Source of the DNA: Candidatus Nitrosopumilus sp.
Lineage (GTDB): Archaea > Thermoproteota > Nitrososphaeria > Nitrososphaerales > Nitrosopumilaceae
NCBI GenBank assembly: GCA_018263505.1
Contig: JAANXA010000022.1
Coordinates: 1 to 35,832, forward strand
DNA length: 35,832 nucleotides
Direction: 5' to 3'
Both the position numbers and the translations under genes were made by a program. Of the stretch, positions 11,087 to 15,962 are shown one piece after another. The notes beneath the pieces were generated by a model. The model was not told the DNA's origin. It saw only the letters and a list, made by a program, of their open reading frames with translations, and searched no databases. The number at the start of each line of letters is the position of its first letter. Position 1 is the first letter of the stretch.

Positions 11087-11355
11087 CCGCAATCCAAAAT
11101 TTCAACTTGAGGCTCACATGTTTCATTAAACAAATCAATTCTTTCAAGAAGGTTTTCACAAAATTCAGGTTCCAGAGTGTTCTCAAAAGTATTGATATCA
11201 TTTAAAATCAACATATGAGAAATTCCACAAGAATTATCTGAAAAAATGATCAAAGACAATATAACTAGAAACAAAAAACCAATTGAAATTAAAATTAGTA
11301 GATTATTCTTTTGTGATATCAATTTCCATGTTTGAAACATTTCTTTGCTTCCCAT
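11083..11355 (-). CDS. Small single-pass membrane protein, unknown function
   Basis: I do not recognise a family. The 90-residue product has a short basic N-terminus ([12 protein letters not shown]), one transmembrane segment at about residues 18-38, then an acidic domain with four Cys (two around DNSCG and EFCEN, two in ETCEP and ILDCG), so disulfides are possible if this part is outside the cell. The first 53 bp overlap the end of the Alba gene; an internal ATG at 11340 would reduce the overlap. It lies directly downstream of the Alba gene on the same strand and may be co-transcribed. Coding status is probable because the stop sits exactly back-to-back with lysE. Confidence 0.6.
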
Positions 11356-11947
11356 CTTGGGAAGTTAAAGAATCAGAAGAAATACGTACATCACTGATAA
11401 CATAACCAACTGTATCCATTCTTTTAAGAATCATTTGAGAAACATCAACAGCCAAAGTAATTTTTTTACCTCTAGCTTTGATGGTCACATGAGGCCTAGT
11501 AGAGAGTTGAGTCAGTGTTGCAGAGACATATGTCATAACAGGTTTTGAACCAATAAAGATAATGTTACGTTCCTCTTGTTTTTGTGCAGATGTCAGTGTA
11601 GAGGTTTCTGGTTCTGCTACAGGTTCTGGTTCTGCTACAGGTTCTGGTTCTGCTACAGGTTCTGGTTCTGCTACAGGTTCTGGTTCTGCTACAGGTTCTG
11701 GTTCTGCTACAGGTTCTGGTTCTGCTACAGGTTCTGGTTCTGCTACAGGTTCTGGTTCTGCTACAGGTTCTGGTTCTGCTACAGGTTCTGGTTCTGCTAC
11801 AGGTTCTGGTTCTGCTACAGGTTCTGGTTCTGCTACAGGTTCTGGTTCTGCTACAGGTTCTGGTTCTGCTACAGGTTCTGGTTTAGTTCTAGAATCAAAT
11901 TCAGATAAAATGTCTTCAGCATCTTTAGATTTTTTAGGGTCACTCAA
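11303..11947 (-). CDS. alba: Alba-family nucleic-acid-binding protein with an EPEPVA repeat N-terminus
   Basis: The C-terminal 88 residues (about 127-214) are an Alba domain, a dimeric DNA/RNA-binding chromatin protein: [31 protein letters not shown] and [16 protein letters not shown] all match the fold. The Sulfolobus Alba segment IGKKPVMNYV reads [10 protein letters not shown] here, so the lysine known to be acetylated (K16) is replaced by Ser134 while the next lysine is kept. Residues about 22-113 are a perfect hexapeptide repeat, EPEPVA, encoded by an 18-bp tandem array; this makes an acidic, Pro-rich, probably extended tail of some 90 residues. The N-terminal 20 residues are charged. The start is TTG at 11947. 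ORFs on the opposite strand through the repeat are artefacts. Confidence 0.88.
11616..11885. repeat. 18-bp tandem repeat, 15 units, inside the Alba gene
   Basis: The unit on the plus strand is GCTACAGGTTCTGGTTCT. Copies start every 18 bp from 11616 to 11868. Fourteen are identical at every base and the fifteenth differs only in its last two bases. On the coding strand each unit encodes EPEPVA. Identity at synonymous positions indicates recent expansion by slippage or unequal recombination, so copy number probably varies between strains and assemblies. Confidence 0.97.
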
Positions 11948-12310: not shown

Positions 12311-13405
12311 TTGGAAACAAGAATAGTATTCCACATAGACTTTGATTATTTTTATGCACAATGTGAAGAAACAAGATCTCCTCAACTAAAATCAAAACCA
12401 GTTTGTGTTTGTGTGTTTTCTGACAGAGGAGGAGATAGTGGAGCAATTGCTACTTCAAATTATACTGCAAGAAAATATGGAGTAAAATCAGGGATGCCAA
12501 TTACATTTGCAAAACAAAAATTAATAGAAAGAAAAGATACAGTGTTTCTCCCAGTAGATTTTGATTTTTACACAGAGATTTCTGAAAAAGCCATGGACAT
12601 CATGAAACAATATGCAGATGTTTTTGAATATGTAGGAAGAGATGAAGCATATCTCGATGTGACCAAAAGAGTGGAAGGGAATTTTCTTAAAGCAAGTCAT
12701 TTAGCACAACAAATTAAAAATGCAATCAGAGAAAAAATCAAACTCACCTGTTCTATAGGGATTTCACCAAACAAATTGGTGTCAAAAGTCGCATCAGATT
12801 TTCAAAAACCAGATGGTCTAACGGTTGTATCACCAGAAAAAGTGGAAGTGTTTTTAGATCAACTAAGAATAAGAACAATTCCAGGTATCGGAAAAAAAAC
12901 AGAGAGTAGACTCACAGAGATGGGTTTTGAGACAATTCAAGAATTAAAAGAATTGGATGTTTTTACATTAAATAAAGAATTTGGAAGAAAAAGTGGAACA
13001 TACATCTACAACTCAGTTAGAGGAATAGATAACGAGTCAGTTAAACAAAGAGATGAAAAAATTCAATACAGTAAAATCATGACATTAAGAAAAGATTCAA
13101 CAGATTACCAATTTTTGTTAGAAAATATTTTAGAATTGTGTAAAGAGGTATTCAAAGTAGTTAAAAAAAATAACAAAATGTTCAAATCAGTTGGAATACA
13201 TTTTGTTCAATCAGACTTGACAAATAAATCAAAATCGAAAATGCTTAGAAATCCAGCTAAAAGTTTAGAAGAATTGGAAAAAAATATTATTCAATTACTT
13301 AAAGAGGCATTATCAAATCAAAAGACAAGCGTAAGACGAATAGGAGTAAAAGTTTCTGAACTTTCAGAAATTAAAGGACAAAGTAATATTACAAATTATT
13401 TTTAG
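12311..13405 (+). CDS. dinB: Y-family translesion DNA polymerase (Dpo4/DinB)
   Basis: A lesion-bypass polymerase closely similar to Sulfolobus Dpo4. Catalytic carboxylates are D10 in FHIDFDYFYAQCEE and D111-E112 in GRDEAYLD. IATSNYTARKYGVKSGMP is the finger segment, SIGISPNKLVSKVASD the palm, and IRTIPGIGKKTESRL the HhH thumb. The last eight residues, QSNITNYF (357-364), are a canonical PCNA-interacting peptide. Its 364 residues compare with 352 in Dpo4. The Ser-Ile before the catalytic Asp-Glu in Dpo4 is Gly-Arg here. The start is TTG at 12311. The end overlaps the convergent archaeosortase-like gene by 17 bp. Confidence 0.95.
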   Translation: METRIVFHIDFDYFYAQCEETRSPQLKSKPVCVCVFSDRGGDSGAIATSNYTARKYGVKSGMPITFAKQKLIERKDTVFLPVDFDFYTEISEKAMDIMKQYADVFEYVGRDEAYLDVTKRVEGNFLKASHLAQQIKNAIREKIKLTCSIGISPNKLVSKVASDFQKPDGLTVVSPEKVEVFLDQLRIRTIPGIGKKTESRLTEMGFETIQELKELDVFTLNKEFGRKSGTYIYNSVRGIDNESVKQRDEKIQYSKIMTLRKDSTDYQFLLENILELCKEVFKVVKKNNKMFKSVGIHFVQSDLTNKSKSKMLRNPAKSLEELEKNIIQLLKEALSNQKTSVRRIGVKVSELSEIKGQSNITNYF

Positions 13406-14333
13406 ATGGTTTTTGTGATTCCATTTTTTTCAAACGTCTGGATTCAATGATTATCACTACAAAGATAAATGCAAAAAGCCAAGGCAAGAACATTATTTCA
13501 CCAGCAATTTTATGATATTCCTCCCACGCAACAGGGTCTGTAGTTACTTTAAGAGCATACCAAGATAATGAAAAAATACGAATCAAATTCACTACAATTG
13601 TGCCCATAATTCCTAAAAGAAAATAGATGGTTTTTCGAGTTCTAGGAATATTCATCTTTAACATAAATGCTCCAATTACTAATGAGAAAATGATGATGCT
13701 GTGTACACCAGCAGATGGCCAAAATACCTGAAGTGCCATAGAACCATGATCACCACGCAAGAACATCACATTATCTCGTGCAACAGCAGTTCCAAGATCG
13801 AGAACAGTAATTACCCAAACATTAGCTTGTACAAAATAAGGAACAATGTATTGTAAAGGACCAAGAGTGTCATATGGGAAAAATGCGTCAAGAGATAAAA
13901 TGATTGCAGTTCCAGTAAGAAATATTGGACCAGCTGGTGCAATTCTAATCCAACGTTTGCCAAAAAAGATTGTCAAAGTAACTACAATGAAAATTGCCAT
14001 AACAATAAAATCCCACATCCACGTCCAAGAGTAAATCAGTTGGACATCAAATGAATCAGCAGATAAGACGAGGTACTCTCGTAATCCATTTTCCAATGAA
14101 ACAAGATATGCAATTGTCAATAATACCAAAGGAATAACAGAGAGTAATCGTTTTTTTGAAATAATTATTTTTAAGCCAACAAGTTCTGCAACTACAAAAA
14201 CTAATGCAAAAAGATAACCACCCCTTCCTTCATTCCAACTCCAAGCAATAGAATCAGGAAATGCAATCATTGCAAAAAGAATAGGACTTGCAATAAGTGC
14301 AATTCCTAAAATTAGATTCCAATTTTGCATCAA
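13389..14333 (-). CDS. Archaeosortase/exosortase-like membrane protein with Ser at the nucleophile position
   Basis: A polytopic membrane protein with about eight hydrophobic segments, resembling the exosortase/archaeosortase family. That family is thought to cleave C-terminal sorting signals on surface proteins by a Cys-Arg-His triad. The NxxRI motif is present (N249-I253, with R252), as is the late His (H274 in EEYHKIAGE). The usual ACSG-type nucleophile motif reads WPSAGVHS (205-212), putting Ser207 where Cys is expected. Thaumarchaea carry PEFG-CTERM type sorting signals, plausible substrates; I see no such protein in this window. The 3' end overlaps the polymerase gene. Assignment rests on motif order, so a non-sortase relative is possible. 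Confidence 0.72.
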   Translation of the reverse strand: MMQNWNLILGIALIASPILFAMIAFPDSIAWSWNEGRGGYLFALVFVVAELVGLKIIISKKRLLSVIPLVLLTIAYLVSLENGLREYLVLSADSFDVQLIYSWTWMWDFIVMAIFIVVTLTIFFGKRWIRIAPAGPIFLTGTAIILSLDAFFPYDTLGPLQYIVPYFVQANVWVITVLDLGTAVARDNVMFLRGDHGSMALQVFWPSAGVHSIIIFSLVIGAFMLKMNIPRTRKTIYFLLGIMGTIVVNLIRIFSLSWYALKVTTDPVAWEEYHKIAGEIMFLPWLFAFIFVVIIIESRRLKKMESQKPSKNNL

Positions 14334-14574: not shown

Positions 14575-15054
14575 TCAAGAATTAAGTTTGCATTCAATCT
14601 TGAGGGATTTTACAGTAGTAAAATAAGTGATTATCAATATAATGATTGCAACAATTCGAATAGGTGTTTCATAATTGGTCAAAAAAGCAGTTGCCGTAGC
14701 TCCAACGGATCCAAAAGTGGAGATCACTGCAAAACCAATTGGACCACAGCTACATGCTCCAGCTGCTGCACCGATTATAGAACCAAAAAGTCCACCACCC
14801 ATTTTTTGTTTAGAGCTTTTTAGAATATTGATTCTAAAAATATTCATAGGGATTACCAAGGAAGATAATACAGAGATTATCAAAATGAGAAGAAACCCAA
14901 ATTCACTTCCAGAAGGAATGTGACTAACAACATAAGGTTCCAAGAAAATATACTCAGACAGTATCAACATACCAATAAACATCAATGAAAAAAAGATAGA
15001 TGAAAATAACAAATATTTGAAATTTGAGAAAACAAGTGTAATTGTTCTTAGCAT
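14575..15054 (-). CDS. Small multi-pass membrane protein with a CSCG motif, partner of a DsbA-like protein
   Basis: A 159-residue protein with about four hydrophobic segments (roughly 11-35, 52-76, 88-125, 130-148). In the third, a Gly/Ala-rich stretch ends in ACSCGPIGFAV with C101 and C103, followed by STFGSVGATATAF. The Cys pair inside a membrane helix, and the gene's position, suggest redox or metal chemistry. Its ATG (15054-15052) follows the TAA of the DsbA-like gene with no base between them, so the two are almost certainly one transcript and translationally coupled. A role as electron-transfer partner (analogous to DsbB, VKOR or CcdA) is inference; I see no direct similarity to those families. 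Confidence 0.7.
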   Translation of the reverse strand: MLRTITLVFSNFKYLLFSSIFFSLMFIGMLILSEYIFLEPYVVSHIPSGSEFGFLLILIISVLSSLVIPMNIFRINILKSSKQKMGGGLFGSIIGAAAGACSCGPIGFAVISTFGSVGATATAFLTNYETPIRIVAIIILIITYFTTVKSLKIECKLNS

Positions 15055-15711
15055 TTAGATCATAGAATCCAAAATTTGTTTAAACACAGAAAATGGTTGT
15101 GCACCACTAATCTGTTTTTGTTCATCAGAATCTATGATGAAAAATCCTGGAGTTCCACGAATACCATGTTCTTTTGCTTGAGAACTGTTGAATTGTACAC
15201 GCTTTGAATATTTTCCAGAATCAAGGCAATCCTCAAAGAGTTCCATGTCAAGACCCATTCCAAAAGCAAATGCCTTTAGTCGTTCTGTATTTGCCCAACC
15301 ATTATCAATTTGAGATTCTTGTAAAGTGTAGAGGTGGTTATGAAATTCCCAATACATTCCTTGATCTTCAGCACAATATGTTGCTTGAGCAGCTTTGGGG
15401 GAATCACGACCTAAAAATGCCAAGTCAACAAAAACTAGATTTACCTTTCCTGTATCAATATAATTTTCAGTGATTGATGGTTTTGTATTATGAAACCAAT
15501 TATAGCATTGATGGCATTGGTAATCACCAAATTCAACAATAGTGATTGGTGCTAAAGGATCACCAAGAATTGGAGAACCCATGGTAGTATCTATAGTTCC
15601 ATGGGAACGAGTTGCAACAGAAATATCCTCAGATGGCATTGAAAATGAGGCTGCAAGTATGCCAATGATTGTAATAGAAATGATGCCTAAAATAACACCT
15701 TTTTTGTTCAT
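15055..15711 (-). CDS. Membrane-anchored DsbA/thioredoxin-fold thiol oxidoreductase
   Basis: A 218-residue extracytoplasmic thioredoxin-fold protein of the DsbA/DSBA-like (Thioredoxin_4) group. An N-terminal hydrophobic segment (about 5-23) is a signal anchor or uncleaved signal. The active site is CHQC at residues 66-69 in FGDYQCHQCYNW, and the cis-Pro loop is RGTPGFF in the C-terminal half. Two further Cys (TYCAED and FEDCLDSG) could form a structural disulfide. It probably makes or isomerises disulfides in surface or periplasm-like proteins. The downstream CSCG membrane protein begins immediately after its stop codon. Family assignment is firm; direction of thiol exchange is inferred. Confidence 0.9.
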   Translation of the reverse strand: MNKKGVILGIISITIIGILAASFSMPSEDISVATRSHGTIDTTMGSPILGDPLAPITIVEFGDYQCHQCYNWFHNTKPSITENYIDTGKVNLVFVDLAFLGRDSPKAAQATYCAEDQGMYWEFHNHLYTLQESQIDNGWANTERLKAFAFGMGLDMELFEDCLDSGKYSKRVQFNSSQAKEHGIRGTPGFFIIDSDEQKQISGAQPFSVFKQILDSMI

Positions 15712-15742: not shown

Positions 15743-15940
15743 TTATTCTAAATTGTCTGCAGATTTTCCCTTAAAGAGATTAACAAATTTTTCAATTGCA
15801 GTATCAATTGGACATACTTCACAAGCAACTGAGGAAGAATGACCATCAAGATGCTTTTCAAATTTTTCTCTAGATTCTAAAACAAGATCACATTTTTCAC
15901 AATATACTTTTGTGATATTTTTTCTTAATGAATCAGACAT
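15743..15940 (-). CDS. Small C2H2-type zinc-finger protein
   Basis: A 65-residue protein from the ATG at 15940 (an in-frame TTG at 15946 would add two residues). One C2H2-like finger is visible: YCEKCDLVL, then FEKHLDGH, giving Cys-X2-Cys and a His pair about 12 residues later. A second CEVC pair follows, and the C-terminus is a short amphipathic helix (EKFVNLFKGK). Small C2H2 proteins are common in thaumarchaea, with mostly unknown DNA, RNA or protein targets. The start is supported by a TATA box centred 25.5 bp upstream (15963-15968), shared with the divergent gene at 15991. Confidence 0.7.
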   Translation of the reverse strand: MSDSLRKNITKVYCEKCDLVLESREKFEKHLDGHSSSVACEVCPIDTAIEKFVNLFKGKSADNLE

Positions 15941-15962
15941 AATCAAAATCTACAACTAGTGC

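Follow-up and report, generated by a model that had tools for sequence, protein, structure and literature searches.

A DsbA-like protein and an uncatalogued three-cysteine membrane protein in ammonia-oxidizing archaea: a candidate thiol-exchange pair with a membrane partner distantly related to MerT

DsbA-like enzymes are re-oxidized elsewhere by DsbB or VKOR, and in both the DsbA–DsbB and the DsbA–VKOR systems an extracytoplasmic DsbA-like enzyme is joined by a small four-helix membrane protein carrying a pair of cysteines; the two proteins described here have the same general make-up. Nitrososphaeria, which are among Earth's most abundant organisms, encode several DsbA-like proteins; DsbB (PF02600) was found in none of 41 relatives (0/41), and VKOR is nearly absent alongside the membrane family considered below. 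The route by which DsbA is recycled is therefore a question, to which this family is a testable candidate answer. Expansion of Dsb proteins in ammonia oxidizers has already been described (PMC7554672). A second point of reference is MerT: in the accepted model Hg(II) passes from the CxxC of MerP to Cys24/25 in TM1 of MerT, and from there to Cys76/82 at the cytoplasmic face (PMC5715351).

The genes of interest lie in a stretch of 35,832 nucleotides (the whole of the DNA analyzed, hereafter the window) from a genome of the ammonia-oxidizing archaeal type: the membrane protein finds its closest relatives among Nitrosopumilus records, and a thaumarchaeosortase gene is also present. The features of the pair are as follows.

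15055-15711, minus strand: DsbA-like protein, predicted extracytoplasmic thiol oxidoreductase, 218 aa with an N-terminal hydrophobic anchor (PF13462, PF01323)
15505..15516, minus strand: CHQC active site (C66-C69) of the DsbA-like protein, read from the sequence
15052..15057, minus strand: TAA-ATG junction with zero spacing (translational coupling), read from the sequence; gap 0 in 59/97 family ORFs
14575-15054, minus strand: CSCG membrane protein, 159 aa, of a 4-TM three-cysteine family present in 256/400 genomes of the class
14746..14754, minus strand: C101-S102-C103, the cysteine pair of the CSCG protein's third hydrophobic stretch, invariant in alignments A1 and A2
14590..14592, minus strand: C155, third invariant cysteine (A1, A2), directly past TM4 and predicted cytoplasmic from a positive-inside count

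The DsbA-like ORF contains DYQCHQCYNW and ends in ATC TAA; the three bases directly after this stop are the ATG of the CSCG ORF. The minus-strand sequence thus confirms the zero spacing between a CHQC thiol oxidoreductase and a membrane protein from which the original prediction of a disulfide-exchange pair set out. Matches to PF13462 (Thioredoxin_4; E 3e-28, 99.5 bits against a cut-off of 23.2, CxxC present) and PF01323 (E 6e-14, over cut-off), a TP loop within GIRGTPGFFI, and BdbD (3eu3, E 2e-19) as the closest solved structure identify the upstream gene, by sequence, as a normal PF13462 member of the BdbD/DsbA type, with oxidase or isomerase activity predicted. Differences from relatives are concentrated at the third codon position (24/9/64 by position for the membrane gene, 23/10/57 for DsbA), and both reading frames are intact in most relatives; accordingly, both ORFs are real genes, translated and under selection.

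Immediately downstream of the pair lies a thaumarchaeosortase gene (13389-14333, minus strand; TIGR04297, E 3e-185). Thaumarchaeosortase is also found near the CSCG family in sponge symbionts (L109, L110) and in further genera, and the neighborhood is therefore old. A 67-aa small protein with C2H2/CxxC motifs is encoded at 15743-15946 (minus strand), 31 bp upstream of the DsbA gene, and a small protein resembling it occurs at 28/80 related loci under a strict motif. Elsewhere in the window, 11303-11947 (minus strand) encodes a protein in which VAEPEP is repeated many times in a row ahead of a folded C-terminal domain; the plus-strand ORFs that overlap it resemble repeat artifacts. No recognizable metal genes were seen at the window locus.

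The CSCG protein matches no family in Pfam or NCBIfam and has no sequence relative in the PDB; relatives were absent from viral contigs, and tblastn with the window protein found none on plasmids. Searches of the literature returned no description of the family. The class-wide search nonetheless placed it in 256/400 Nitrososphaeria genomes, so that the suspicion of an unrecognized family proved justified; among the 41 relatives it is present in 23/25 own-genus genomes and in two other families. Beyond the class, the phylum gave two weak matches only (E 3e-4 and 8e-4), which were left out of the counts. In one genome (G013; L023/L035) the direct orthologue consists of two overlapping ORFs, which suggests a frameshift; the remaining paralogues of G013 are intact.

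An alignment of 22 diverse members (A1) has ten invariant columns, three of which are the cysteines C101, C103 and C155 (the others are E34, P40, G107, F114, G115, P131 and L140), and the same three cysteines are invariant in an alignment of 39 closer members (A2). The spacing of the pair varies by subfamily: CC, CxC or CxxC. C155 had been overlooked at first, as had the wider superfamily and the distant kinship to MerT through intermediates that are set out below. The segment with C101 and C103 reads GACSCGPIGFAV. The distribution of charge puts the N-terminus, loop 2 and the C-terminus inside and loop 1 outside (N-in/C-in). AlphaFold2 places helices at 12-32, 51-80, 89-97, 104-123 and 129-154 with an overall pLDDT of 75.9, falling below 50 at 97-103, and the helix break falls exactly at CSC; a second run, on a divergent member, gave a poor model (pLDDT 62, pTM 0.46) in which the break at the cysteines recurred. 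The protein had been described as having four helices, which is approximately right, the model having four long helices and one short one; CSC does lie inside a hydrophobic segment, at a break within the third such stretch. On the model and the positive-inside rule, CSC is predicted to lie about mid-membrane and C155 on the cytoplasmic side. A Foldseek search of the AlphaFold model against the PDB gave nothing better than E 1.4.

The CSCG protein had been judged unlike DsbB, VKOR and CcdA, and family searches and profile comparisons bear this out. There was no Pfam match to DsbB (PF02600); hhalign of the CSCG profile against VKOR (PF07884) gave a probability of 0.1%, with 99/150 permutations better, and against CcdA/DsbD_TM (PF02683) a probability of 0.6%, with 7/150 permutations as good. 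With no family match and null profile comparisons, membership of all three families was rejected.

Members of the family are usually linked to a DsbA-like gene. Pooling the first-round loci with 80 loci from the genome collection gave 97 family ORFs, a partly redundant set (some genomes are in both); in about 86 of these the gene immediately upstream, in the same orientation, is DsbA-like. In 84/97 the gap is between -17 and +2 bases (exactly 0 in 59, the other 25 within that range), and two more family ORFs are adjacent to DsbA apart from an over-extended start. When each genus is given one vote, adjacency holds in 15/23 genera; a random gene would be adjacent about 0.3% of the time given five DsbA genes per genome. 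Paralogues that are 33-45% identical, including a second copy in the same genome (L031), keep the DsbA-CSCG gene order. The linkage to thioredoxin-fold genes that had been foreseen is therefore found, and homologues are not mostly unlinked. There are departures from the pattern: the DsbA-like gene stands head-to-head at two sampled loci of genus g24 and likewise at two loci of the genome collection, L115 and L117; several genera (g18, g23, g34, g36, g37, g39) keep the CSCG gene without an adjacent DsbA; and in the sponge symbionts L109 and L110 the CSCG gene sits in the same neighborhood with no DsbA next door.

DsbA-like proteins encoded beside the family also differ from the rest at the active site. 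At family loci the second residue of the CxxC dipeptide is non-aromatic in 69/71 (HQ 44, the commonest, HA 8, EQ 5, and others), compared with F or Y at that residue in 19/21 DsbA-like genes away from the family, counts that are inflated by orthology. The paralogous paired lines agree (PN, EK, HL, PM). Two unpaired genes have PN; downstream of one of these (L246:883-2630, minus strand; CPNC) is a CcdA-like gene, a hint that pairing with a membrane partner is a general trait of DsbAs whose dipeptide is non-aromatic. A distinct dipeptide is what would be expected if exchange with a partner shapes the active site.

The association extends to whole genomes. Across 400 Nitrososphaeria genomes, PF13462 DsbA is present in 246/251 with the CSCG family versus 42/149 without it, and VKOR in 5/251 versus 35/149; genomes are clustered by lineage, which confounds all of these statistics, and Fisher p-values are not to be taken literally. 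Weak matches (E about 1e-5), which come from some genomes and belong to a 280-aa sister family, were excluded from these co-occurrence counts. VKOR was found in none of the 25 own-genus genomes searched, and the VKOR genes of other Nitrososphaeria families themselves adjoin thioredoxin-fold genes. CcdA/DsbD_TM is present in 31/41 relatives independently of the CSCG family; in the genome of the window it adjoins a TlpA-like gene. This pattern is what a VKOR substitute would give, and is consistent with one without being proof.

The CSCG family (A1) does not stand alone. Profile comparisons connect it to A3, a group that includes haloarchaeal members (98.6%, E 6e-16), and to A4, the 280-aa family (95%, E 4e-8), where a further CC occupies what is predicted to be an outer loop. 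They also connect A3 to an actinobacterial family (A8; 94%, E 1e-7); all three links hold after column permutation and cysteine masking. Every one of these families has a cysteine pair in TM3, and most also have a cysteine past the last TM, which in A3, A4 and A8 falls at the place equivalent to C155. On the strength of profile relation and common cysteines we name A1, A3, A4 and A8 a three-cysteine membrane superfamily; Pfam and NCBIfam have no entry dedicated to any of its member families.

Thioredoxin-fold neighbors recur across the superfamily. A haloarchaeal member overlaps the end of a DsbA-like gene by 4 nt, another relative follows a thioredoxin-fold gene of the AhpC/TSA-redoxin type, and three actinobacterial plasmids (L209, L210, L213) carry operons of DsbA, CcdA and a CPxC membrane protein with overlaps of one to four bases. 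Because CcdA is also encoded there, the CSCG-type protein is not the sole redox partner in these three operons. A heavy-metal P-type ATPase is encoded nearby at L209. The member of the 280-aa family from the genome of the window (L144:4600-5433, minus strand, contig C29) has CPTC in a TM, the CC in the predicted outer loop and a terminal cysteine, and matches nothing in Pfam or NCBIfam. Another nitrososphaerial locus (L149:1267-10335) encodes five different small membrane proteins, each having CC or CxxC in a TM; a redoxin gene precedes one of them, DsbA precedes another, and a third adjoins a DUF3179-like gene.

It is through these intermediates that the superfamily appears, from its sequences, to be distantly related to MerT. 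The window protein itself gave no match to PF02411 at E 10, and direct hhalign of the CSCG profile against MerT gave a probability of 2.3%, with 2/150 permutations as good and nothing when cysteines were masked; the clear match to a known transporter family that would have spoken against a redox role was thus not found directly. The non-significant alignment places CSC over the CC of MerT and C155 over its Cys76. Actinobacterial relatives match PF02411 in one register (best E 1.4e-6, below the cut-off); compared with MerT as a profile they reach a probability of 92%, whether or not the cysteines are masked, so that a chain from the archaeal family through A3 and A8 to MerT holds stepwise. Several bacterial relatives lie within heavy-metal islands, and the paralogue in the genome of the window precedes a cupredoxin gene. 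Among 13 genomes of the own genus that were searched, none had a MerA match over cut-off, and a Mer operon was accordingly rejected. Given the kinship and the path of cysteines, the CSCG protein is therefore either MerT-like, with a thioredoxin-fold protein in place of MerP, or a user of that cysteine path for disulfide exchange.

The best-supported reading is that of a dedicated thiol-exchange pair, made up of a DsbA-like enzyme and a member of the uncatalogued three-cysteine superfamily; the two proteins probably carry thiols or disulfides, or perhaps a soft metal, from one side of the membrane to the other, and may stand in for the missing DsbB/VKOR. The anchored DsbA-like protein would act outside the cytoplasmic membrane, its CxxC exchanging a disulfide with C101/C103, where the third hydrophobic segment is broken; from its position at the cytoplasmic side of TM4, C155 would relay the thiol or disulfide inward or resolve a mixed disulfide. 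Net re-oxidation of DsbA, the task of DsbB or VKOR elsewhere and missing here, is the more likely direction. Physical interaction, disulfide exchange, direction of flow and the final electron acceptor are matters that we infer. Upstream linkage and co-occurrence with DsbA, the near-exclusion of VKOR, the lack of DsbB in the 41 relatives, the difference in dipeptide and the invariant cysteines all argue for this mechanism, as do the recurrence of linkage in haloarchaea and actinobacteria and the independence of CcdA/DsbD, the reductive route, from the family. Arguing against it are the predicted cytoplasmic position of the third cysteine and mid-membrane position of CSC, which are unlike DsbB and VKOR, the kinship to MerT, which suggests metal chemistry, the genera without adjacent DsbA, and the 42 genomes that have DsbA without the family. 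We favor DsbA recycling over movement of a soft metal, and hold this tentatively, as something near an even call.

The main rival, and a serious one, has a thiophilic ion, most likely Cu(I), passing from the CxxC of the thioredoxin-fold protein, which would act as MerP does, through C101/C103 and on to C155 at the cytoplasmic face. The predicted cysteine geometry resembles that of MerT in the published model (PMC5715351), with a pair in mid-TM and a cysteine ending the next TM on the cytoplasmic side, and the actinobacterial matches, the stepwise chain, the heavy-metal islands and the cupredoxin gene all point the same way. We rate this rival as possible, if somewhat unlikely; against it stand the weak direct match to MerT, the own-genus result for MerA, a partner that is a DsbA and not an HMA metallochaperone, and a window locus without recognizable metal genes. 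Mercury in particular is disfavored by the MerA result, by a gene that is near-core and by the true DsbA partner. Should metal be moved instead, thioredoxin-fold proteins would be joined to MerT-type transporters, and a candidate route for handling copper would be at hand in nitrifiers that depend on it, as the ammonia-oxidizing archaea do.

Electrons might also flow the other way, from cytoplasmic thioredoxin outward via C155 and C101/C103, keeping DsbA reduced in the manner of CcdA/DsbD. The predicted positions of C155 and CSC would suit such a conduit, as would the three actinobacterial operons with DsbA and CcdA and the CPNC DsbA upstream of a CcdA-like gene; however, most of these genomes already have CcdA irrespective of the family, and the near-exclusion of VKOR points to an oxidative role, making the conduit improbable. 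More doubtful again is the notion that the two proteins are co-expressed through ancestral operon structure, the membrane protein acting elsewhere, for example in a neighboring envelope process. It would account for the genera in which the gene has no DsbA beside it, but linkage recurs in divergent paralogues, in other families, in haloarchaea and in actinobacteria, and paired DsbAs have an active-site dipeptide different from that of unpaired ones.

If the thiol-exchange reading is taken further, the CSCG protein would be a third, hitherto unrecognized kind of membrane protein that re-oxidizes DsbA, besides DsbB and VKOR. It would serve the ammonia-oxidizing archaea, its relatives being haloarchaeal and actinobacterial, and in evolutionary terms it would be a cysteine module of the MerT type now used for exchanging disulfides. 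This larger claim is possible, if somewhat unlikely.

Set beside the known systems, the CSCG protein resembles MerT in having a cysteine pair in a TM, with GP or P after the pair, followed by a TM predicted to end in a cytoplasmic cysteine; it has two extra N-terminal TMs and lacks the third TM of MerT, it has one cytoplasmic cysteine where MerT has two (a pattern read here from the sequence and an estimate of topology), and a thioredoxin-fold partner replaces MerP outside any Mer operon. In DsbB and VKOR the active CxxC lies near the outer face and a further pair of cysteines occupies an extracytoplasmic loop; the CSCG pair is predicted near mid-membrane and the third cysteine on the cytoplasmic side, and the loop pair is missing. 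VKOR, moreover, has its CxxC in TM4 together with loop cysteines, whereas the CSCG pair is in TM3. The TM domain of CcdA/DsbD resembles the CSCG protein in having membrane cysteines in a discontinuous helix and partners of the thioredoxin fold, yet CcdA carries its two cysteines in two pseudo-symmetric halves and has no profile relation to the family. Against a typical BdbD/DsbA, finally, the enzyme of the pair is atypical in its CHQC dipeptide, and its partner belongs to a new membrane family.
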